Below, in pieces: positions 4,395 to 21,461 of a stretch of DNA of 26,475 nucleotides. Source of the DNA: a virus; the IMG/VR virus record IMGVR_UViG_3300032246_000414, positions 1 to 26,475 of that record; one strand, written 5' to 3'. The stretch's first letter is position 1, and every line of letters begins with the position of its first letter. A program made the position numbers and the translations under genes. The notes beneath the pieces were generated by a model that ran no database searches, had not been told where the DNA came from, and saw nothing but the letters and a program-made list of their open reading frames with translations.

Positions 4395-6293
4395 TTAACT
4401 AAATCTTGCCCTTTGTCTAATGGCTTCCATTCTTTGTTGACTTCCTGTAACATCACTTTCAATAACGTAAGCCTTTACTGCTTGATTACCTAATTGATTA
4501 ATTGACTGCTGACTAATATTTGTAGTTTGTGCACTTGGAATTGCAGGAGACATTGGAGAAGCCGTATTTAATGATGGTGGACTAACGCTACCACCTACAC
4601 CGCCACCGCCTTTTACTCCGCTTAAAGCATTTTTTGCTTTACTTACTGCTCCAACAACTGCCAAGATTTGAGAAGCGTAAAATATAGGCATTGTAAATGG
4701 TGCTAATGGACCTGTACCTTTTGCTCCTTTTTGTGCAATATCTAATCCTTGTATGTATCCTAATGCAGTATTAATTCCAATTTCAGCAATGGCAGCAGTT
4801 TTACTTGCAACTGTTCCTTGTTCAAAAGCAGAACCTAAATTAGAAATAAATCCTTTTAATGTTTCTATTTGTGCTTTTTTTGCTTCAACTTCTAAATCAT
4901 TTATTCTTCTTTTTGCTGCTAAATTATCTTCATCTTGTTTTTGTTCTGCAACAATTCCTTCTGCTTTAATAGCTAGTAACTTACCTAAGCCATCAGTTTG
5001 CATTTTTTCTGTAAGGTCTTGTGCTTTTTTATCAAAAAAATCCTTTCTTATTGCATCATCTTCTGTCTTCTTTTCTCTTTCTTCATTTGTTAATCCATCA
5101 ACACCAACTGCATTTAAAGCTAGTCTTTTTCTTTGCTCTTGTCTTTTTTCAAATGCATTTAATTCACTTTGTAATAATGCATCTTCTAATGCTTTTTGTT
5201 CAGCTAATTCATCTTCTATTTGTTGTGCTCTTAATTCTTTATTTTTTATATTTGTTTGCTGCTGCCTTTGTAATTTATCTTTATCTCCTTTTTCTTTATC
5301 ATTAGCCTGTTTAGTTAATTTGTCTAATTCTTGTTTATCCATCTCATCATTTAATGCACTTCTTGTTTTCAATACATTTTCTTGTGCAGCATTATATTCT
5401 TGTTGTGTTACATCTTCTTTGTTAGCTAATTCTACAAATAATTCAGATGCTTTATCAAATTCCTCTTGCTTTAATTTAAGCCTTGCTTCTGCTCCTTCTT
5501 TTGTTATTTTAGTTATTTCTTCTTCACTTTTACCTGCTATTTTAGCTTTTAATATATTTTCTTGTGTTGCAACGTCTAATGCTTTACTTAATCCTTGATA
5601 TGCATAACTTTGGTCATTAATTGCTTCTGTTAATTTTTTTTGTGCCTCTTCAGCATTTCCTGTTCCTGAAGTCCATTCTGATATTTTTGAAATTAATGTT
5701 CCTAATCCTACTACTAATAATCCAATTCCTGTTGCAGCGATTGCACCTTTTAATGCTTGAAATCCAATACTTGTTTGATTAACTGCACCTGTAAATGCTT
5801 TTTGAACTGTTGCTGCTATTGCAGTAACTGTATTATTTATTTTTTGAAATGCAGTACTTGCTTGTATAACTGCACCTAATTGTTTAAATGAATCTATGCT
5901 TTCACCAACTGATTGCAACCCTTGTGAAATAGCCATTGCAGATTGAACCTTTAATAATGTCTTTTGTACATTGTCTGATTCAGCACCAAACAATGCCATT
6001 GCACCTTGCACTGCCCCAAACCCACCTGCAACACCTGATAAAGAAGAAGTCAATGCTTTAAACTTTGCATCAGGATTAAATGCATCAGTTAGTGCTTTAG
6101 CATCACCAATTCTATCTTTAAGTTCTGCTGCTTTTTTAGCCGCATTAACTGCTTCTCTTGAAGTTGCACCAAATTTATCTGATAATGCATTAACTTCATT
6201 TTGTGCCTCTCTAAGTTGCTTTTTAAGCGAACCTACCGAAGCATTAGCTTCTGATGTATCTACGTTTACATTTAAATTTAAATTCTCTGCCAT
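4395..6293 (-). CDS. Tail tape measure protein
   Basis: A 632-residue protein. The N-terminus has heptad-rich helices (VGSLKKQLREAQNEVNALSD), followed by Ala-rich and hydrophobic segments around 180-205 (IAATGIGLLVVGLGTLISK). A long Lys/Glu/Gln coiled coil covers about 220-480. Near 500-550 is the hydrophobic stretch NTALGYIQGLDIAQKGAKG, then PFTMPIFYASQILAVVGAV, and the tail is Gly/Ser/Pro-rich, ending AYVIESDVTGSQQR. This matches Bacteroidetes phage tape measures, which set tail length and help DNA entry. At about 1.5 angstrom per residue the tail would be near 95 nm (inference). The start overlaps the stop of the preceding tail gene as TAATG. Confidence 0.9.
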   Translation of the reverse strand: MAENLNLNVNVDTSEANASVGSLKKQLREAQNEVNALSDKFGATSREAVNAAKKAAELKDRIGDAKALTDAFNPDAKFKALTSSLSGVAGGFGAVQGAMALFGAESDNVQKTLLKVQSAMAISQGLQSVGESIDSFKQLGAVIQASTAFQKINNTVTAIAATVQKAFTGAVNQTSIGFQALKGAIAATGIGLLVVGLGTLISKISEWTSGTGNAEEAQKKLTEAINDQSYAYQGLSKALDVATQENILKAKIAGKSEEEITKITKEGAEARLKLKQEEFDKASELFVELANKEDVTQQEYNAAQENVLKTRSALNDEMDKQELDKLTKQANDKEKGDKDKLQRQQQTNIKNKELRAQQIEDELAEQKALEDALLQSELNAFEKRQEQRKRLALNAVGVDGLTNEEREKKTEDDAIRKDFFDKKAQDLTEKMQTDGLGKLLAIKAEGIVAEQKQDEDNLAAKRRINDLEVEAKKAQIETLKGFISNLGSAFEQGTVASKTAAIAEIGINTALGYIQGLDIAQKGAKGTGPLAPFTMPIFYASQILAVVGAVSKAKNALSGVKGGGGVGGSVSPPSLNTASPMSPAIPSAQTTNISQQSINQLGNQAVKAYVIESDVTGSQQRMEAIRQRARFS

Positions 6294-8338
6294 TAGTATG
6301 TTGTTTCAATTACTTTTAATAAACTTATTTTCGTTGTATTATATTCCATTGGGTTATACCCTTCTACCTTATTCAATCTAAATAGTATTCCATCTATCCA
6401 AATGTATTTACTGAAGTCTAAATTAAATATATCTATTGTATTTAATAAAGCTGAACAAGTTAATAATTTGCTATTCTTATCCGTTATTTCTGCTATATAT
6501 TCAGAATGATATGCATTGAATAAATTAGTTGTAGGATAGCTAGAAACAACTATCTGTATTTCTTTAGGTGAACCAAAGTTAATATCATTAGTAGGATTGT
6601 TAGGGTCATCTAAATGCCCTGCATATCCGTATGATGTTAATGTAGTTAAAGTGGTAGCACCGTTTTTAATTGTCCAAGATGCAACACTTGTAATCTTTTT
6701 CTTTTGCATTATTCTAATAACACTATCCATTGCATCCTCTGTAGTATTATTGCTAGATAGCTTATATATTGCAGGATATTTTTTATCCGTACCTGTTGCT
6801 TGAAATAAAACTGATGGTGCAAATATTACTTCAACACTTTCCGTATTTTTACTAAAATCATATGAAGTATCATATACCCTGTCACCATAATTTTCGTTAT
6901 ATTTCTTTTTGTAGTTTTCATTGTAAAAGTCATTGTCCTCTTTAAATTTATAATGGTAATATCTAGCATTAAGTTCACTCATTGGCTTTATGCTTAATGG
7001 CTTAGACCTGTCTATCTTATTGCTCCAATCTAATGCATTAGCACTTGATGCAGAATAGAAATCAATATATGGTTTTATGTGAATTTTTTTATCATCATAA
7101 GTATCATCATATATATATAAATTAAACATCTTAGCAATGCTTAATAAAAAGTCTCTTTGAAATACCCCTTTAGGTATTGTGCTATTTGCTATAATAGTTT
7201 CACCATAACCAATTGGAACTATTTCGCTGCTAGTTGTGGTAAAATCTAAAGTGCCTAATGAAGCAGTAAATTCATAATCACTATCACCAATATGGGCAAT
7301 ATCAAAAGTTACAGATATTGTATTACCTGTTGCAATTGATATCCCTGTTAAATTAATAGTAGCCTCAAAGTCATTACCTACAAATCCTGCACCTACATAG
7401 TAAGTACCAATTATACCACCGTTTTTTCTGATATGTATTGAACCTGCATACCCTAATGTATATGTACCTAATAATGATAAATTGATATTAATTACTTTTG
7501 TAGTCGCACCTGTATATGTAAATAAATAATTACTTGTTAATGTGAAATTACCTAGTAAAGTTGTATTATATTCAATTGGGAAATCAGTACCATAGTCAAT
7601 ATAATCTTTACTTACATTCAATGCAGATAACTGTGTATTACTTGAACTCGTTAATGTCTTTTGGTTATGTGGTATGATTAACCTTTTAAAGAAATCCGTA
7701 TTAAAAAAGTCAGATTCATATGTATAATCAGTAGCATCAAATATTTTATCCATGTATTCTTTAACATAGAATGAAGGTCTAAATGCACTAAACTGAAAAT
7801 CAATTTTATTAGTACTTACATTACCATAGTCAATTAATGGGTAGTAATATCCTGAACCTGCAGATGCATCCCAACTTCCTGTTATATTTCCAACATTATA
7901 TGTATGATTATATGCACTAAAATCTAAGTCTTCTAATCTTGAATTACCTAATGAAGTCATAAATCCACCTAGTTCACCAAATACAGAACATTGATATTCT
8001 ATAGTTTTACCTTCGCTTACTATTTCTAATATTCTTAATGTTCCCTTAAATATCTGCACTTTGTCAATAAAGATTTTACATTGTGCTGCCTTTGATGCAT
8101 TAAAATTATAATTAACATTTGGCAATGTATCATCAGTAAAGTTTGCATTACCCAAATCAAATATAAATCCAAATATTTGGTTATTCCTAGCCGTTCCTGA
8201 TAGTGATATGGTTTTACTAAATGATGTATTTTTTGAACCAAAGTCATTAATATCATCAACTGCATAAGTAAATTCTGTACTTATATCCTGCAATAAATCT
8301 AGCTTATAATCTTCAATATATATTTCAGTACTAATCAT
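6293..8338 (-). CDS. Tail tip / baseplate hub-like protein, 681 aa
   Basis: A large beta-rich protein starting MISTEIYIEDYKLDLLQD. The first ~150 residues include NTSFSKTISLSGTARNNQIF and a KGTLRILEI segment. The middle has Gly/Thr/Ser-rich strands. Then GVFQRDFLLSIAKMFNLYIY and KKIHIKPYIDFY follow, a pattern I associate with tail hub proteins that build a gp27-like ring. The C-terminus ends WIDGILFRLNKVEGYNPMEY and SLLKVIETTY. It sits between the 408-aa tail protein (TAATG coupling at 8338) and the tape measure (TAATG coupling at 6293). Hub and host contact are the likely roles. No peptidase or lysozyme motif is visible. The exact assignment is inference. Confidence 0.65.
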   Translation of the reverse strand: MISTEIYIEDYKLDLLQDISTEFTYAVDDINDFGSKNTSFSKTISLSGTARNNQIFGFIFDLGNANFTDDTLPNVNYNFNASKAAQCKIFIDKVQIFKGTLRILEIVSEGKTIEYQCSVFGELGGFMTSLGNSRLEDLDFSAYNHTYNVGNITGSWDASAGSGYYYPLIDYGNVSTNKIDFQFSAFRPSFYVKEYMDKIFDATDYTYESDFFNTDFFKRLIIPHNQKTLTSSSNTQLSALNVSKDYIDYGTDFPIEYNTTLLGNFTLTSNYLFTYTGATTKVININLSLLGTYTLGYAGSIHIRKNGGIIGTYYVGAGFVGNDFEATINLTGISIATGNTISVTFDIAHIGDSDYEFTASLGTLDFTTTSSEIVPIGYGETIIANSTIPKGVFQRDFLLSIAKMFNLYIYDDTYDDKKIHIKPYIDFYSASSANALDWSNKIDRSKPLSIKPMSELNARYYHYKFKEDNDFYNENYKKKYNENYGDRVYDTSYDFSKNTESVEVIFAPSVLFQATGTDKKYPAIYKLSSNNTTEDAMDSVIRIMQKKKITSVASWTIKNGATTLTTLTSYGYAGHLDDPNNPTNDINFGSPKEIQIVVSSYPTTNLFNAYHSEYIAEITDKNSKLLTCSALLNTIDIFNLDFSKYIWIDGILFRLNKVEGYNPMEYNTTKISLLKVIETTY

Positions 8339-14880: not shown

Positions 14881-15046
14881 TAAACATTATGAAATTTAAT
14901 GATACAAAGATAAAACCAAAATTCAAACTTTTATGTAACTGATTATGCTCATCTACACTATATCCTAATGATATGCCCAAGTGTATTGTGTTAGTTAATA
15001 TACCTAATGATATTCTAAAGTTGCCAAATTGAATAAACCATTCCAT
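14864..15046 (-). CDS. Hypothetical protein, 60 aa
   Basis: Begins MEWFIQFGNFRISLGILTNT and continues IHLGISLGYSVDEHNQLHKS, then a hydrophobic end GFIFVSLNFIMFN. Alternating hydrophobic and polar residues suggest a small beta barrel or meander. The start shares bases with the stop of the HAD-fusion gene (TAATG), and the stop overlaps the HNH start by 17 nt. That dense coupling argues for a real gene. No function is assigned. Confidence 0.55.
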   Translation of the reverse strand: MEWFIQFGNFRISLGILTNTIHLGISLGYSVDEHNQLHKSLNFGFIFVSLNFIMFNEETY

Positions 15047-15774
15047 TATTTATCTATTTGCTTTAGTTTGTTTATTGCCCATTCAATTCCTGAAGTGCCA
15101 CCCCATGCATCCCACATTAAACCACCGCAACCTTCTGAATAAGGTACATCTTTATTTTGTTGATGTCTTTTAAAAGATGCCATCCTAGCTATTGTATCCC
15201 TTGAAATGTTTTCTTTATTAGCTAATTGATTTGCTCTAGCTTTACCAACTGCAGTTCCACATTCACCCCATCCATTTTCTTCTGCCCACTTTAAAGCCTT
15301 TTTTGCATTATTAGTAGCTGATTCAGGATAATCATTATATGTTATCTCAAATTCAAATTTAACTCCTCTAGCTTTTGGTAATGCATTAACCTGTGCAATT
15401 ACATCAGGATTATTATCTGTATGTATTTCTATTCCTAATGAAGATATCTTTTCAACCTTAGCTTTATTTGAACCTGTTGCATAAACTCTATCTGCAGGTA
15501 TACCTAAATCTTTTGCAGTACCTAGCATTGTTTCTTTGTTATCTCTAGCTGATATTATATAAACTAAATTACCTGCAGCAATATCTCTTTTAGCTTTTTC
15601 TTTTCCTGCATCTGTACTTAATACCCCATCATAGTCATAGCTAACTTTCTTAGCTGCCATTTTACCACCTGCTAAAATTGCTGCCCATACTTTAGCAGCC
15701 TTATCATGAGTATCATAAATACAACTTCCTGTACCTATTCTGTATTTTCCGTTGCTACATTTATATATTGGCAT
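15046..15774 (-). CDS. HAD-like domain fused to a C-terminal phage domain, 242 aa
   Basis: Three parts are visible. Residues 1-38 (YKCSNGKYRIGTGSCIYDTH) look like a small Cys-containing module. Residues 43-130 form a HAD-like fold with motif I SYDYDGVLST (D47, D49), motif II IISARD (S75) and an acidic motif HTDNNPD (D120, D124). Residues 145-242 (YPESATNNAKKALKWAEENG, ANQLANKENISRDTIARMAS, PYSEGCGGLMWDAWGG) are a domain I associate with phage head proteins. HAD enzymes are mostly phosphatases or nucleotidases; the substrate is unknown. The start overlaps the end of the glycosyltransferase gene by 14 nt. Confidence 0.72.
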   Translation of the reverse strand: MPIYKCSNGKYRIGTGSCIYDTHDKAAKVWAAILAGGKMAAKKVSYDYDGVLSTDAGKEKAKRDIAAGNLVYIISARDNKETMLGTAKDLGIPADRVYATGSNKAKVEKISSLGIEIHTDNNPDVIAQVNALPKARGVKFEFEITYNDYPESATNNAKKALKWAEENGWGECGTAVGKARANQLANKENISRDTIARMASFKRHQQNKDVPYSEGCGGLMWDAWGGTSGIEWAINKLKQIDK

Positions 15775-16765
15775 TGCCTATCAATTTATTATAAATAGCA
15801 AATCTTTTGTTATTTATTGTGTGTAGGTTAAAATTAGCATTGCAGTATTCAAATAGCTTTTGTCCATATTCAATCCTAGCTGCTTCATCATTAACTAATA
15901 ATTTAATCCAATAATACCAATCCCTTTGATTATTTATATAGCATACAGGCATATCTTTATATGGATGCACATTGCTAACAATAGCAGGGTTTCTTTTTGA
16001 TGCAGTTTCTAATACTTTTAAATTAGATTTCATTGCACCAAATTTATTATCAACCAAAGGGATAACGCTAATGTCTGAATCAGCATAAGCACCCATATAT
16101 TTTGTTACCTCTGCATAGTCATATATGGTTGGATTAAGTTTTAATCCATTGGTAAATACTCCTATCATTCTATCCCAAAGATGTTTTTCAGCTAGATTAT
16201 AACCTGCAATTACAGTTCTTACAGGGAAATTAATCTTCTTCATTGGATTTCTTAATATATCTAAATCAGGAACATGAGTACCTGAACCTGACCAAAACAA
16301 CCTAACCATATCAGATTCCAATTTATTATCTTGGAATTGCTCCTCACCATATGGTAAAGCATTAGGTAATATTTCTACATTAGTATTATACTTATAAATT
16401 TCATCAGCTAACCTTTCATGAGTACAGGTACAAAGGTCTGCTACTTTTAAATATTCAGTTATAATTTCAGATATATTGGTATCCTGATATCTTTGATACA
16501 AAATATGTGATGGGGGTAAATGCCAATAGTCATCATTATCAACTATTAATTTAAAGTTATATTTCAACTTCATCTTAACTAATAGCTTTGCATCTGTTGA
16601 ATTTAAAAACCTATTAAAAATTACTATATCATAATTATTATCAAATACTAATTCATTAATAGTATCTGTAATCATACAATAGTCTTTTTGCATATTAACT
16701 AATGGCATCATTATTCTATGATAACCAACTCCACTAAATTTGCTTGTTACTGCTAATATTCTCAT
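15761..16765 (-). CDS. Glycosyltransferase, GT-B type
   Basis: A 334-residue protein starting MRILAVTSKFSGVGYHRIMM, the usual N-terminal strand and nucleotide-sugar acceptor loop of GT4-like enzymes. The middle has LIVDNDDYWHLPPSH and ADLCTCTHERLADEI. The C-terminal Rossmann half has LFWSGSGTHVPDLDILRNPM and KFGAMKSNLKVLETASKRNP, the latter equivalent to the E(x7)E donor-binding region (ending VLETA). It should transfer a sugar from an activated donor; donor and acceptor are unknown. It overlaps the GT-A gene by 4 nt, so the two are coupled. Phage enzymes of this kind may decorate virion proteins, DNA or host surface glycans. Confidence 0.82.
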   Translation of the reverse strand: MRILAVTSKFSGVGYHRIMMPLVNMQKDYCMITDTINELVFDNNYDIVIFNRFLNSTDAKLLVKMKLKYNFKLIVDNDDYWHLPPSHILYQRYQDTNISEIITEYLKVADLCTCTHERLADEIYKYNTNVEILPNALPYGEEQFQDNKLESDMVRLFWSGSGTHVPDLDILRNPMKKINFPVRTVIAGYNLAEKHLWDRMIGVFTNGLKLNPTIYDYAEVTKYMGAYADSDISVIPLVDNKFGAMKSNLKVLETASKRNPAIVSNVHPYKDMPVCYINNQRDWYYWIKLLVNDEAARIEYGQKLFEYCNANFNLHTINNKRFAIYNKLIGNANI

Positions 16766-17349
16766 AATGGTATATAATATGCTTTAGTTCCATCAGTATA
16801 TTGTGATACGTTTTTATTGTGTAAATCCCAAGTCTTTTTAACTAACTCCATTTTATTATAACCATATTTATCACTACCGTTCTGTTCTAAGTGTGTAGCT
16901 TTAGTAAATGGTACAAATTTAGTATGCAATCCTGCTGACCTTACTCTTGTGCAGTAATCTAAATCTATTGCTCCGTAAGGGTCTAACTCTTGATTAAATG
17001 CACCTACTCTTTTAATTGCTTCTTTTGTTATTGTAAAGTTCCCAATCAAATCTAATGAATCACCTGAAAAGCCATCTAAAGGAATTGAGCATATACCTAT
17101 TGATTCATCATTTAAAAATTCATTTCTAATTGATAACCAATTATTAGGTTCTAGTATATCATTTCCCAAAATGGTAACATATTCAATATGACTAAAGTCT
17201 ATTTTATTTAACCCTACATTAATTGCATTAGCTATTCCTTTTTCTTTAACTATTACAAGCTGCTCAATATCTGCACCTGCATTAATTAAGTTATGACCTA
17301 ATGTACTAACACTATCGTTTTGATAGTTTAAAAATATTACTGCGTTCAT
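16762..17349 (-). CDS. Glycosyltransferase, GT-A type, short
   Basis: A 195-residue protein starting MNAVIFLNYQNDSVSTLGHN. It has a Rossmann-like start, VTILGNDILEP (a GND variant where DxD is usual for metal and donor binding), and the acceptor motif VGAFNQELDPYGAIDLDYC with a downstream TRVRSAG. This is the core of GT2-like enzymes but shorter than the ~230-300 residue norm, so it may be a minimal catalytic domain. The DxD change could alter metal use. The stop overlaps the GT-B gene (ATGA-type) and its start overlaps the acyltransferase end by 4 nt. Confidence 0.75.
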   Translation of the reverse strand: MNAVIFLNYQNDSVSTLGHNLINAGADIEQLVIVKEKGIANAINVGLNKIDFSHIEYVTILGNDILEPNNWLSIRNEFLNDESIGICSIPLDGFSGDSLDLIGNFTITKEAIKRVGAFNQELDPYGAIDLDYCTRVRSAGLHTKFVPFTKATHLEQNGSDKYGYNKMELVKKTWDLHNKNVSQYTDGTKAYYIPL

Positions 17350-17828
17350 CTTGGTTTGTTTACTCCTATTTTTCTAGCAGGAACACCTGCATACTTTGAA
17401 TATTCTTCTGTCATCCCTTTAATAAATGCACTTGCTCCAATCATACAACCTTCTTCTATTGTAGTGAATTGATGAAGTACTGCATTTAATCCTATGTTTG
17501 AATTTTCTTTAATTATAGAATGACCGCCAATTTTTGCACCACAACTTATAGTTACATTGTTTTGAATTATACAATCATGTCCTATATGTGAATGTTTCAT
17601 TATAAAACAATTGTTTTTAATATATGTGACATCTTGTGTACCTGCATCTATAGTTACCAATCCTGTAATAATATTATTATTCCCAATAATTACTTTTCCT
17701 TTTGGTTCATTCCAATACTTCTTATGTTCTGCAGGGTCACCTATAATACAATAAGCACCTATATAATTGTTATCACCTAATTCAACATTATCACCTATGA
17801 TTGCAGTTGGGTGTATATAATTAGCCAT
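17346..17828 (-). CDS. LpxA-like left-handed beta-helix acyltransferase
   Basis: I set the start at the ATG at 17828 (MANYIHPTAIIGDNVELGDN), as the longer start at 17849 adds only MVANRKL. Hexapeptide repeats ([LIV]-G-x4) recur along the sequence: NYIGAYCIIGD, GKVIIGNNNII, CIIQNNVTISCGAKIG and MIGASAFIKGMT. The HSHIGHDC segment is where LpxA carries its catalytic His, and PARKIGVNKPR closes the helix. The fold adds acyl or acetyl groups to nucleotide sugars. With 160 residues it is shorter than LpxA (about 260) and closer to sugar O- or N-acetyltransferases. It precedes the two glycosyltransferases. Confidence 0.8.
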   Translation of the reverse strand: MANYIHPTAIIGDNVELGDNNYIGAYCIIGDPAEHKKYWNEPKGKVIIGNNNIITGLVTIDAGTQDVTYIKNNCFIMKHSHIGHDCIIQNNVTISCGAKIGGHSIIKENSNIGLNAVLHQFTTIEEGCMIGASAFIKGMTEEYSKYAGVPARKIGVNKPR

Positions 17829-18114
17829 TAGTTTTCGGTTTGCGACCACGCTTTTTTATTTCAACTATTTCAGTTGGGATTAATAAATTATCTTGATTTA
17901 ATACTTTTTCATAATATGCATATAATCTTAGCACCATATCCATTCTGCAATTCCCACACCATATAGTTAATATAAAACCTGCATCAATATATTTCCTATA
18001 AATATGCTCATACATCTTCATTATATTCAAATCTAAATTGCGAAGGAATCCACTCTTTGCAGTTTCATAATTATTATAATGCTCCTTCAAATATTGCCTA
18101 TGTTCTAGTTCCAT
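17821..18114 (-). CDS. Conserved hypothetical protein, 97 aa
   Basis: Begins MELEHRQYLKEHYNNYETAK and is mostly helical and charged. The motif IWCGNCRMDMVLRLYAYYEK holds a CxxC pair that could be redox-active or bind metal, and the C-terminus is strongly basic (EIKKRGRKPKTNG, with an AT-hook-like RGRKP). It overlaps the membrane protein gene by 10 nt and the acyltransferase by 8 nt. I recognise the pattern from Bacteroidetes phages, where it has no assigned function. The RGRKP tail is a hint of DNA binding only. Confidence 0.7.
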   Translation of the reverse strand: MELEHRQYLKEHYNNYETAKSGFLRNLDLNIMKMYEHIYRKYIDAGFILTIWCGNCRMDMVLRLYAYYEKVLNQDNLLIPTEIVEIKKRGRKPKTNG

Positions 18115-18823: not shown

Positions 18824-19116
18824 TCAATTAGTACAGGTTGATTATCCTTTTCGGTGCAAATATATACAATTCCTTTACAATTATGAATATCTTGCAATCT
18901 TTCTTTTTGTTCAGGACTTAATTTATCACCAATCTTTTTAACTTCTACTGCAACATAAACACCTTCTGATGTATATCCTTGCAGGTCTGCCCATCCTTTT
19001 TCTATAGTTCCTTTGCGTTTACCAAATGGAATATTATTAACTCTGTTAAGTCTATACCCAATATATTCTAAACTCTTTTTTGCCCACTTTGTTAAATCGT
19101 TTGCTGATATGTCCAT
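18802..19116 (-). CDS. VRR-NUC-like nuclease / Holliday-junction resolvase candidate
   Basis: A 104-residue protein with the PD-(D/E)xK core: GWADLQGY with D44, then VYVAVEVKKIGD with E58 and K60, and SPEQKERLQDIHNCKG giving the helix with Q70 typical of VRR-NUC domains. The N-terminal helix is LTKWAKKSLEYIGYRLNRV. It would cut branched DNA during phage recombination or packaging. It lies at the end of the replication block and overlaps the sigma gene by 22 nt. Confidence 0.82.
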   Translation of the reverse strand: MDISANDLTKWAKKSLEYIGYRLNRVNNIPFGKRKGTIEKGWADLQGYTSEGVYVAVEVKKIGDKLSPEQKERLQDIHNCKGIVYICTEKDNQPVLIEWTKIKL

Positions 19117-19282: not shown

Positions 19283-19418
19283 AAAACTCTTTTTTTTCAG
19301 TTATTAAGTTGGTTTTTGTTTTTACATCCATATAGGATGCATAATAGTTTATAAAATCAGAAGTATACGCATACCTTTTAATTCCCCTAAAATTATACTT
19401 GATTTGATATATTTTCAA
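19242..19418 (-). CDS. Possible small protein with TTG start, 58 aa
   Basis: A frame open from the TTG at 19418 to 19242 reads MKIYQIKYNFRGIKRYAYTS if TTG is the start. It then continues DFINYYASYMDVKTKTN and a charged helical end. It overlaps the end of the 248-aa gene by 26 nt and the zinc-finger gene by 41 nt, and it has plausible amino acid composition. No ATG is available except an internal one. It fills the 110-nt gap otherwise without coding capacity. Confidence 0.35.
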   Translation of the reverse strand: MKIYQIKYNFRGIKRYAYTSDFINYYASYMDVKTKTNLITEKKEFYEKVQKMRNEQKV

Positions 19419-20139
19419 AATATTTTACTAAAGCTAGTTTTTTACATTGTGTATCAATAAAATCATCATCCTTTATACGTTTACTAAATTCTTTTGCATC
19501 TTGTCCATATAACTTATTAAGTTTCAATAGATTATCTTCTCTTACTAGCTTTATTATATTTAACATTTCGCTAGGTTCAAACTTTAATTTTCCCTGTCTT
19601 AGTAAAATTGCGAATACCTTATCTGCATTAAAAACCTTATTAAAGTCATTTTTAGCCGATTCTAGCCACTCTTTTTGAGTAAATGATACTATGTCATCAT
19701 CTGATAATTTAGGTGTCTCTAATTGGCTTAAAATAGGTTTTATCATTTTTCTAACTTCTACTGCCTTTTTTGTATAGGCTGACATTACCTGACCAATAAA
19801 CTTAGGACTAAACTTTTCATAGTGTTCAGTACTGCAATCTAACTTACCCTGCACTGCCATTTTAAAAGCTATCCTAAATTCCTGTACGGTATAAAATGGA
19901 TAACTTGTACGTATAAAGTCTTCAATAATAATCATTTCTTCTTTGTCAGGATATTTTGTAAATCCTAGCAAAGTAAAAATATAAGCTAAGTTTTCTTTTA
20001 AAGTTACAGTTGAAAGCAAATTAAGTTTATCACCTTTAAAGGCTTCAGCTATTTCATTATCAGCTATTAACCCACTCTTTAAGGGAAGCCATTCGTTCTT
20101 TACTTGTGGCAGTTGGTTTAAATGTTTTTGTATTTCCAT
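19393..20139 (-). CDS. Replication accessory protein candidate, 248 aa
   Basis: A protein starting MEIQKHLNQLPQVKNEWLPL. A helical middle region LKENLAYIFTLLGFTKYPDK, EDFIRTSYPFYTVQEFRIAF, then KFSPKFIGQVMSAYTKKAVE, is one I recognise in Bacteroidetes phage proteins directly after DnaD/DUF1376-type initiators. There is no Walker motif, so it is not a DnaC-type ATPase. A loader or primosome-partner role is inferred from gene order. Its start overlaps the replication protein end by 80 nt in a different frame, an unusually long coding overlap, and is preceded by AAAAAACAAACTACGTT. Function is uncertain. Confidence 0.6.
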   Translation of the reverse strand: MEIQKHLNQLPQVKNEWLPLKSGLIADNEIAEAFKGDKLNLLSTVTLKENLAYIFTLLGFTKYPDKEEMIIIEDFIRTSYPFYTVQEFRIAFKMAVQGKLDCSTEHYEKFSPKFIGQVMSAYTKKAVEVRKMIKPILSQLETPKLSDDDIVSFTQKEWLESAKNDFNKVFNADKVFAILLRQGKLKFEPSEMLNIIKLVREDNLLKLNKLYGQDAKEFSKRIKDDDFIDTQCKKLALVKYFENISNQV

Positions 20140-20935
20140 AACGTAGTTTGTTTTTTATCCAAGTATTTATTCTGCGTTTAACATCAAAAAACTTTTCAAG
20201 TTCATAACGCAATTTACCATTTTTATCTGATTCACACCAATATTCTAAAAATTCATTATACGATTCACCTAATAGTTCTTTATATTCTTCTATACTATTT
20301 ATAAATAAATCTTTATTATTTACATTTATATTTACATTTTCCATATGTTTTAACATATGTTTATTCATATGATTTGTAATATAATCAATTACTTCTTGTT
20401 CATTTATATTAAACCAATCACCATTTATATGATATTCTTCAAACTTTTTATGTATATTTTTTTCATCACCTAAAGTACAATTTTCAAAATAACATATAAA
20501 TAATAATCTTTTATTTTCTCTGCTTTTTATTGTACTAAGCCTATTTTTGGGGTTAATACTAGCACCTATTTTTATATAACCACTATCTAAATCCTTAAAT
20601 AAATAAATACAAGTTATATTATTATCAGATTCTAATGTCTTTTGATTTATACCACTTCTATTGTTTCGCCTTGATTCTGTAAAATTTGCTCTCTTTTCTT
20701 TTTCTTGTTCAAGCCTTTCATTAAAAAATAATCCTTTTTCATCTTGCTTAAATTTATCTTTAATGTTTTTCCAATTTTCTCCAACGGTTCGTTCAATCAT
20801 ATGTATGTTCATATGTCCTCTATTGAATTGCAACATTAGCAGTTCCATATATGCACCTTTTTCTTCAAAGGTCATACCCATTGTACCCCCAATGTAATCA
20901 TTAGGATAAAATAAAAATGCAGGGTCTTTTGACAT
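20060..20935 (-). CDS. DUF1376-type replication protein with inserted GIY-YIG-like domain
   Basis: I use the ATG at 20935 (MSKDPAFLFYPNDYIGGTMG); the longer frame to 21064 adds residues unlike the family and overlaps the DnaA-like gene. Residues 1-90 (MTFEEKGAYMELLMLQFNRG, WKNIKDKFKQDEKGLFFNER) match the DUF1376 domain of phage replication initiators. Then ANFTESRRNNRSG enters the usual linker, but residues about 107-187 are IYLFKDLDSGYIKIGASINP, NRLSTIKSR and IHKKFEEYHINGDWFNI, a T5orf172/MUG113-type GIY-YIG-like domain. After it the typical linker resumes (MNKHMLKHMENVNINVNN), and a C-terminal helical part (residues ~210-291) follows. The inserted domain has Arg and a Lys-Ile-Gly core; whether it cuts DNA is unknown. 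Confidence 0.78.
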   Translation of the reverse strand: MSKDPAFLFYPNDYIGGTMGMTFEEKGAYMELLMLQFNRGHMNIHMIERTVGENWKNIKDKFKQDEKGLFFNERLEQEKEKRANFTESRRNNRSGINQKTLESDNNITCIYLFKDLDSGYIKIGASINPKNRLSTIKSRENKRLLFICYFENCTLGDEKNIHKKFEEYHINGDWFNINEQEVIDYITNHMNKHMLKHMENVNINVNNKDLFINSIEEYKELLGESYNEFLEYWCESDKNGKLRYELEKFFDVKRRINTWIKNKLRYGNTKTFKPTATSKERMASLKEWVNS

Positions 20936-21032: not shown

Positions 21033-21461
21033 TTAATTAGAAGACAAATATAAATTATATTCATCTAATTCAGTACATATCTGAAGTATTTTTTCTTTAA
21101 ACCATTCTTCAGTTTCCATTATATTACTACAATTTTTAATAGAATACAAAGTTGTGGAATGATGATTTACTCCAATATAAGGTGCTATTTCAGATAGACT
21201 TAATTTAGTATATAATCTTAATATATAAGCTGCTGCTTGTCTACCATGAATGGTAGATTGTTTTCTATTTTTAGCTTTAATATCAGTATCAAAAACTTCT
21301 TCAACTAATTGTACAATCTTATTAGGTTTTATACTTTTATTAGATATTGTTACTGCTATATCATCAAGTATAATGCCTTCCCTTGTCATTAGTTTATGTA
21401 GGAAATTAAAGCTATCTTTTTGCATTTTATATGCATCATGTATTTGTTTTTGTATTGACAT
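21033..21461 (-). CDS. Stand-alone DnaA domain IV-like DNA-binding protein
   Basis: A 142-residue protein. Residues 61-130 (KNRKQSTIHGRQAAAYILRL, LSLSEIAPYIGVNHHSTTLY, SIKNCSNIMETEEWFKEKIL) match the C-terminal DNA-binding domain of DnaA, including the helix-turn-helix and the NHHSTTLYS version of the DnaA signature. The AAA+ ATPase and the N-terminal DnaB-interaction domain are absent. The N-terminus (about 1-60) is helical and unfamiliar. The gene lies directly before the replication protein. It could bind phage origin boxes or displace host DnaA. No perfect TTATCCACA box was seen in the gaps. Confidence 0.85.
   Translation of the reverse strand: MSIQKQIHDAYKMQKDSFNFLHKLMTREGIILDDIAVTISNKSIKPNKIVQLVEEVFDTDIKAKNRKQSTIHGRQAAAYILRLYTKLSLSEIAPYIGVNHHSTTLYSIKNCSNIMETEEWFKEKILQICTELDEYNLYLSSN

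Follow-up and report, generated by a model that had tools for sequence, protein, structure and literature searches.

Phages have been found to join a T5orf172 domain to the DNA-binding domain of RepA_N-type replication initiators (PMC8263062; PMC10448857). The closest of these to the protein described here is Odn of phage ICP1, in which cutting is abolished by loss of E180 and also requires iterons (PMC8263062). In phage lambda, the origin and its iterons lie within the gene of the initiator O itself (PMC3985674). A literature search found no paper on the combination of a DUF1376 domain with a T5orf172 domain, which is not proof of its absence.

The window analysed here, the whole 26,475-nucleotide stretch of IMG/VR record IMGVR_UViG_3300032246_000414, is a tailed-phage record encoding a terminase, a portal and an ERF annealing protein. 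Probable surface-modification genes form a block at 15046-17849, with one gene for a glycosyltransferase (phrog_7162, E 2.7e-60) and one for a hexapeptide-acyltransferase-like protein. A single DUF1376 initiator was found in the window, with no second copy there, and it carries a GIY-YIG-like domain directly ahead of a repeat array that is probably the phage origin. The features of the locus are as follows, all on the minus strand.

19393..20139 (-): downstream gene of 248 aa, overlapping the 3' end of the initiator gene, in the same arrangement as in the relative L002
20060..20935 (-): chimeric initiator gene of 291 aa, an intact reading frame with its start ATG at 20935
20063..20323 (-): C-terminal domain, residues 205-291 (homologues)
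20310..20341 (-): AT-rich repeats GAAAATGTAAATATAAATGTAAATAAT adjoining the iterons, a candidate unwinding element
20342..20371 (-): linker iterons, three CATATG at 12-bp spacing (20366, 20354, 20342), coding for HMNKHMLKHM
about 20372..20623 (-): inserted T5orf172/MUG113 (GIY-YIG) domain, residues ~105-188 (Pfam, AlphaFold, alignments)
20660..20935 (-): DUF1376-type N-terminal domain, residues 1-92, with TESRRNN as its last motif (Pfam, PHROG, pLDDT)
20798..20815 (-): two further CATATG at 12-bp spacing within the N-domain coding sequence (codons 41-46)
21033..21461 (-): upstream gene with a DnaA C-terminal DNA-binding domain (Bac_DnaA_C, E 3.5e-12)

The protein appears to be a replication initiator. 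Its DUF1376 match at residues 9-41 (E 6e-5) scores 23.7, below the Pfam gathering threshold of 30.1, as the scores of its clear relatives also are, and in PHROGs its N-terminus matches a primosomal protein (E 9e-7). The AlphaFold model of the full protein gives the N-domain a pLDDT of 82-96 across most of its length. An alternative in-frame start lies upstream at 21064; the homologues nevertheless begin, like the window protein, at MxKDPA (MSKDPAFLF). The C-domain has no Pfam match and finds homologues only at the same locus, where it is common to insert-free phages and to initiators with another N-domain; the Clostridium sequence L094 and its sibling L109 have a DnaB_2 C-domain (PF07261) instead. 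Both matches of the inserted domain exceed their gathering thresholds: MUG113 at residues 122-186 (E 2.5e-10, 41.2 bits against 22.3) and T5orf172 at residues 109-186 (E 7.6e-7, 30 bits against 20). NCBIfam profiles gave no match, and neither did PADLOC for known defence systems.

That the domain is an insert between conserved flanks is well supported by comparison with relatives that lack it. L002 (84% identity), whose neighbouring genes match those of the window gene, and L014 (80%) encode 211-aa forms of the protein whose alignments span both flanks and lack exactly the domain block; further insert-free relatives with both flanks are L019, L082 and L084-L092. In the window the left boundary falls directly after TESRRNNRSGINQKTLESDN and the right boundary at the first CATATG (HM) codon pair, residue 188/189, the N-side flank in most relatives being TESRRNN and the C-side flank HMxxHMEN. 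Occupied and empty alleles thus exist at one site, both for the window against L002 and L014 and for L094 against L109. The region has no Rfam match, which rules out an RNA intron or other Rfam element, and an assembly artefact is rejected because the architecture recurs on independent contigs with the reading frame kept. The domain is rare, being present in 5 of the 205 DUF1376 genes parsed (a set that includes some duplicate rows) and absent from about 200; one homologue search found it in none of 80 loci. A scan with the single domain sequence and the A2 scan found nothing, and a DNA pattern for the linker-plus-insert spacing gave only chance matches in viral contigs.

The isolated domain is modelled with a pLDDT of 91 and a pTM of 0.80 in the beta-beta-alpha-beta-alpha order of GIY-YIG proteins, and within the full protein it retains a pLDDT of ~86-95, the input to AlphaFold being an alignment built from the loci of this analysis. 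When the full-length model was compared with a viral structure library, it matched MUG113, T5orf172 and GIY-YIG proteins (E ~1e-6 to 1e-4). The same model gave no informative match in a PDB fold search; the domain alone gave matches that were all weak (E 0.2 or worse), with 1ywl and 1zg2 as the top two and I-TevI (1mk0) at rank 15. The first two are small proteins of the GIY-YIG superfamily. The predicted fold of the domain is GIY-YIG-like, with high model confidence. Eight columns are invariant among 15 aligned domains (Y111, K122, G124, R132, E158, H162, W174 and F175). K122-I-G124 forms part of the motif set of the domain together with Y111, R132, E158 and H162; the second Tyr of YIG is a Lys in the window, as it also is in the other aligned T5orf172/MUG113 domains. 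E158 aligns with E180 of ICP1 Odn. From its sequence, the window domain is predicted to cut or nick DNA.

A preliminary description of this DNA had proposed a DUF1376-type initiator with about 80 residues of a T5orf172/MUG113 block placed before the linker; the Pfam matches and the insert-free relatives confirm the block and its placement. Its coordinates, 20060-20935, are those of the whole gene, the domain itself occupying about 20372-20623. Domain capture, as it suggested, agrees with the conserved flanks and with L002 and L014, which lack the block. Neither of the conditions that it named for its own refutation holds: close homologues without the domain do align along both flanks, and AlphaFold does predict a GIY-YIG-like fold. 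The catalytic Arg and Glu, R132 and E158, are indeed conserved in all 15 domains. The nicking, recognition or homing activity that it raised is still an inference.

The linker was there called flexible. The capture does lie in it; what was missed is that it holds iteron-like repeats. These repeats within the gene are under selection at the DNA level. Across 98 non-redundant genes the linkers contain 185 CATATG, against 122.8±4.5 in synonymous-codon shuffles, with an excess in all three frames (126/47/12 against 107/13/2), and CAT encodes the His of all 126 linker HM pairs, the ratio elsewhere being 206 CAT to 117 CAC. Some of the loci were retrieved through the HM peptide pattern, which is not the source of the signal because neither codon choice nor an out-of-frame excess can come from it. 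The spacing of CATATG in the linkers is 11 or 12 bp, and the iterons are followed by GAAAATG-type AT-rich repeats. A second CATATG cluster, in N-domain codons 39-60, is likewise conserved at the DNA level in the family (111 against 72±3 in shuffles). By analogy with lambda O and its ori, the CATATG linker is probably the phage origin. Only two genes among the 98, L301 (2061-2086) and L389 (1792-1816), both insert-bearing, have CGTACG palindromes in place of CATATG in the same layout, possibly a change of origin specificity; CGTACG-type iterons were sought in about 700 genomes and none were found.

Nor did the preliminary description note that other phages have this insertion too. Four more carriers, making five known in all, have a MUG113/T5orf172 domain at the same junction, directly after [TS]ESRRN[NS]: L094, a Clostridium MAG; L294, a viral contig with a C-domain of another type; and the viral contigs L301 and L389. 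L109 has the N- and C-domains of L094 without the domain. On the N-domain tree the five carriers require five changes, at least three of which are forced by well-supported branches, and a single clade of all five is rejected (p-AU 6e-4). On this tree a single ancient insertion with vertical descent is thereby rejected, and the insert was gained or transferred repeatedly. The tree of the 80-aa domain itself is compatible with one clade (p 0.216) and fits both several captures and a single spread, so that a domain that arose once and then moved horizontally would also agree with the sequences. Nearest to the window's domain on this tree, without strong support, are L376 and L140, which are Bacteroidota-associated and lie outside DUF1376 genes. 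Between L094 and L294 dN/dS is 0.38 for the domain, which is therefore under constraint, and 0.12 for the N-domain. Their synonymous distance is 0.45 in the domain against 0.92 in the N-domain, which, at only ~45 sites, is suggestive of a separate transfer of the domain.

Every carrier has 12-18 codons from the WF motif of the domain to the end of the domain, which coincides with the first iteron or lies close to it. The iterons of both Clostridia carriers are of a 12-bp, in-frame kind, whereas those of nine insert-free Clostridia siblings that resemble them in the N-domain are 11-bp iterons distributed over three frames; insert and array therefore appear to have moved together, which suggests transfer as one tract in this group. 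The window and L002 form a mosaic with one edge at the iterons. From 21.9 to 23.2 kb they share 90-99% of their DNA positions (mostly 95-99%, as at 21.9-22.7 kb and at 22.9-23.2 kb). On the N-side of the insert identity drops to 75-84% at 21.0-21.4 kb and to 61% at 20.7-20.8 kb, with 97% over 20.9-21.0 kb at the gene start, and it is back at 94-95% directly past the iterons. L003, L007, L008 and L009 carry the window-type C-domain behind another N-domain (the KNKSYYFSHDYNA type) and no insert. Their homology to the window sets in where the iterons end on the 3' side (window 20341/20329), which shows that initiator modules have been swapped at this point; since these insert-free swaps have the same edge, the edge alone is no proof of homing. 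Elsewhere in these genomes, L002 has ~1.6 kb of extra DNA (5581-7189) between the 248-aa gene and a VRR-NUC gene (compare window position 19115), and L009 has a cytosine methyltransferase-like gene at the corresponding position.

The explanation that we tentatively prefer, at somewhat less than even confidence, is that the protein is both the phage's own initiator and an iteron-targeted nuclease that acts on the origins of insert-free relatives, in homing or exclusion. The initiator would consist of a DUF1376 DNA-binding N-domain, origin iterons in its own linker and a replisome-recruiting C-terminal domain, with a T5orf172-type GIY-YIG domain captured immediately ahead of the iterons. Binding of the N-domain to CATATG iterons would place the nuclease on the origin, where it may cut or nick beside the iterons of related insert-free phages co-infecting the same cell. 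Either the insert would then spread via repair, homing into the origin, or the competitor would be disabled in the manner of ICP1 Odn. The chimeric protein would still act as initiator for its own phage, whose own site would be spared or sparingly used. Such sparing might arise because the insert parts the N-side sequence from the iterons; it is left unexplained by the iterons themselves, since those of the carrier are intact. Also weighing against this explanation are the Lys in place of the second Tyr of YIG, the N-domain swaps of insert-free phages at the iteron edge and the small number of carriers, five in all. A more specific proposal, possible but doubtful, is a homing origin, in which the GIY-YIG domain and the neighbouring iteron array form a single mobile cassette in initiator genes, aimed at the iterons of rivals by the initiator's DNA-binding domain and spreading by repair of the cut origins, so that the replication protein would at the same time be an origin-specific weapon or replicator.

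Several other roles have been weighed against an initiator that cuts rival origins. The domain could be inactive in cutting and provide only additional DNA binding or spacing, which would stabilise the initiator at the origin. The names of the structure-library matches show that T5orf172 domains are often labelled DNA-binding, and iterons lie close behind the insert in all carriers. This role is nevertheless unlikely, since the active-site Y, R, E and H are invariant in the carriers and in other family members, and the homologous domain of Odn is a proven nuclease (PMC8263062). Kept catalytic residues, and a location beside the iterons within the one DUF1376 initiator that the window was found to hold, would equally suit a domain that nicks the phage's own origin and thereby aids opening, or a switch of replication mode, in normal initiation; yet about 200 insert-free relatives manage without it, and the GIY-YIG nucleases whose biology is known are homing, repair or restriction enzymes, which makes this role quite unlikely.

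A homing-type domain might also sit in a tolerant linker as a neutral or transient passenger of no use to the phage, as its rarity (5 of about 205 genes) and its very AT-rich composition (GC 0.20, GC3 0.08) could indicate. However, the domain is under purifying selection in the two Clostridia sequences (dN/dS 0.38) and recurs at one junction in differing backgrounds, which renders this improbable. Finally, the protein could be an Odn-like dedicated anti-competitor nuclease, with the real initiator encoded elsewhere in the genome. The record spans 26.5 kb against the 32.7-kb contig of a near relative, and part of the genome may therefore be unseen. But the gene lies where L002 has its initiator, has lost neither the iterons nor the overlap with the downstream gene, and has a C-domain of ~95% DNA identity to that of L002, with no second copy in the window; a dedicated nuclease is thus very improbable.

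With Odn it became clear that a phage can make a nuclease out of the DNA-binding domain of an initiator. In the window, a nuclease-type domain lies inside an apparently working initiator, beside an apparent origin, and the combination has arisen or spread more than once, which suggests an origin-cutting module that is mobile or has been weaponised. If active, it would tie homing directly to origin incompatibility and to competition between phages, and recombination boundaries at phage origins would become easier to explain. Furthermore, the CATATG arrays with 11-12 bp spacing provide a testable origin motif for the very large and little-studied DUF1376 phage group of Bacteroidota and Clostridia.

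Compared with known systems, the insert-free DUF1376 initiators L002, L014 and L109 share the N-domain, the iteron-bearing linker and the C-domain, and differ by the absence of the GIY-YIG domain. A free-standing T5orf172 protein of 108 aa from Leeuwenhoekiella phage Arctus_1 (L140) is ~38-42% identical to the insert, but is a gene on its own. Acinetobacter phage phi1_092006 (L138, 2656-3270) and L139 encode an annotated DnaD-like helicase loader with a C-terminal T5orf172 domain, 0.7 kb before an O-like initiator, possibly an Odn-like protein. Lambda O resembles the window gene in holding origin and iterons within the initiator gene, but its 19 bp iterons are unrelated and it has no nuclease domain (PMC3985674). 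The coliphage RepA_N-T5orf172 nucleases Inny, Muut and Mt1B1_P17 show that fusions of an initiator DNA-binding domain to T5orf172 arise repeatedly (PMC10448857); these are, however, dedicated nuclease genes with another DNA-binding domain and not the phage's own initiator. ICP1 Odn (gp88) likewise fuses a T5orf172 domain to an initiator-type DNA-binding domain, with its catalytic Glu aligned (E180/E158), but its N-domain is of the RepA_N type (Pfam DUF6945), it has neither a replisome-recruiting C-domain nor embedded iterons, and its target is the origin of a satellite (PMC8263062). The window protein is a DUF1376 protein in which the whole initiator is kept and, because it retains both the C-domain and the embedded iterons, is not simply an Odn.
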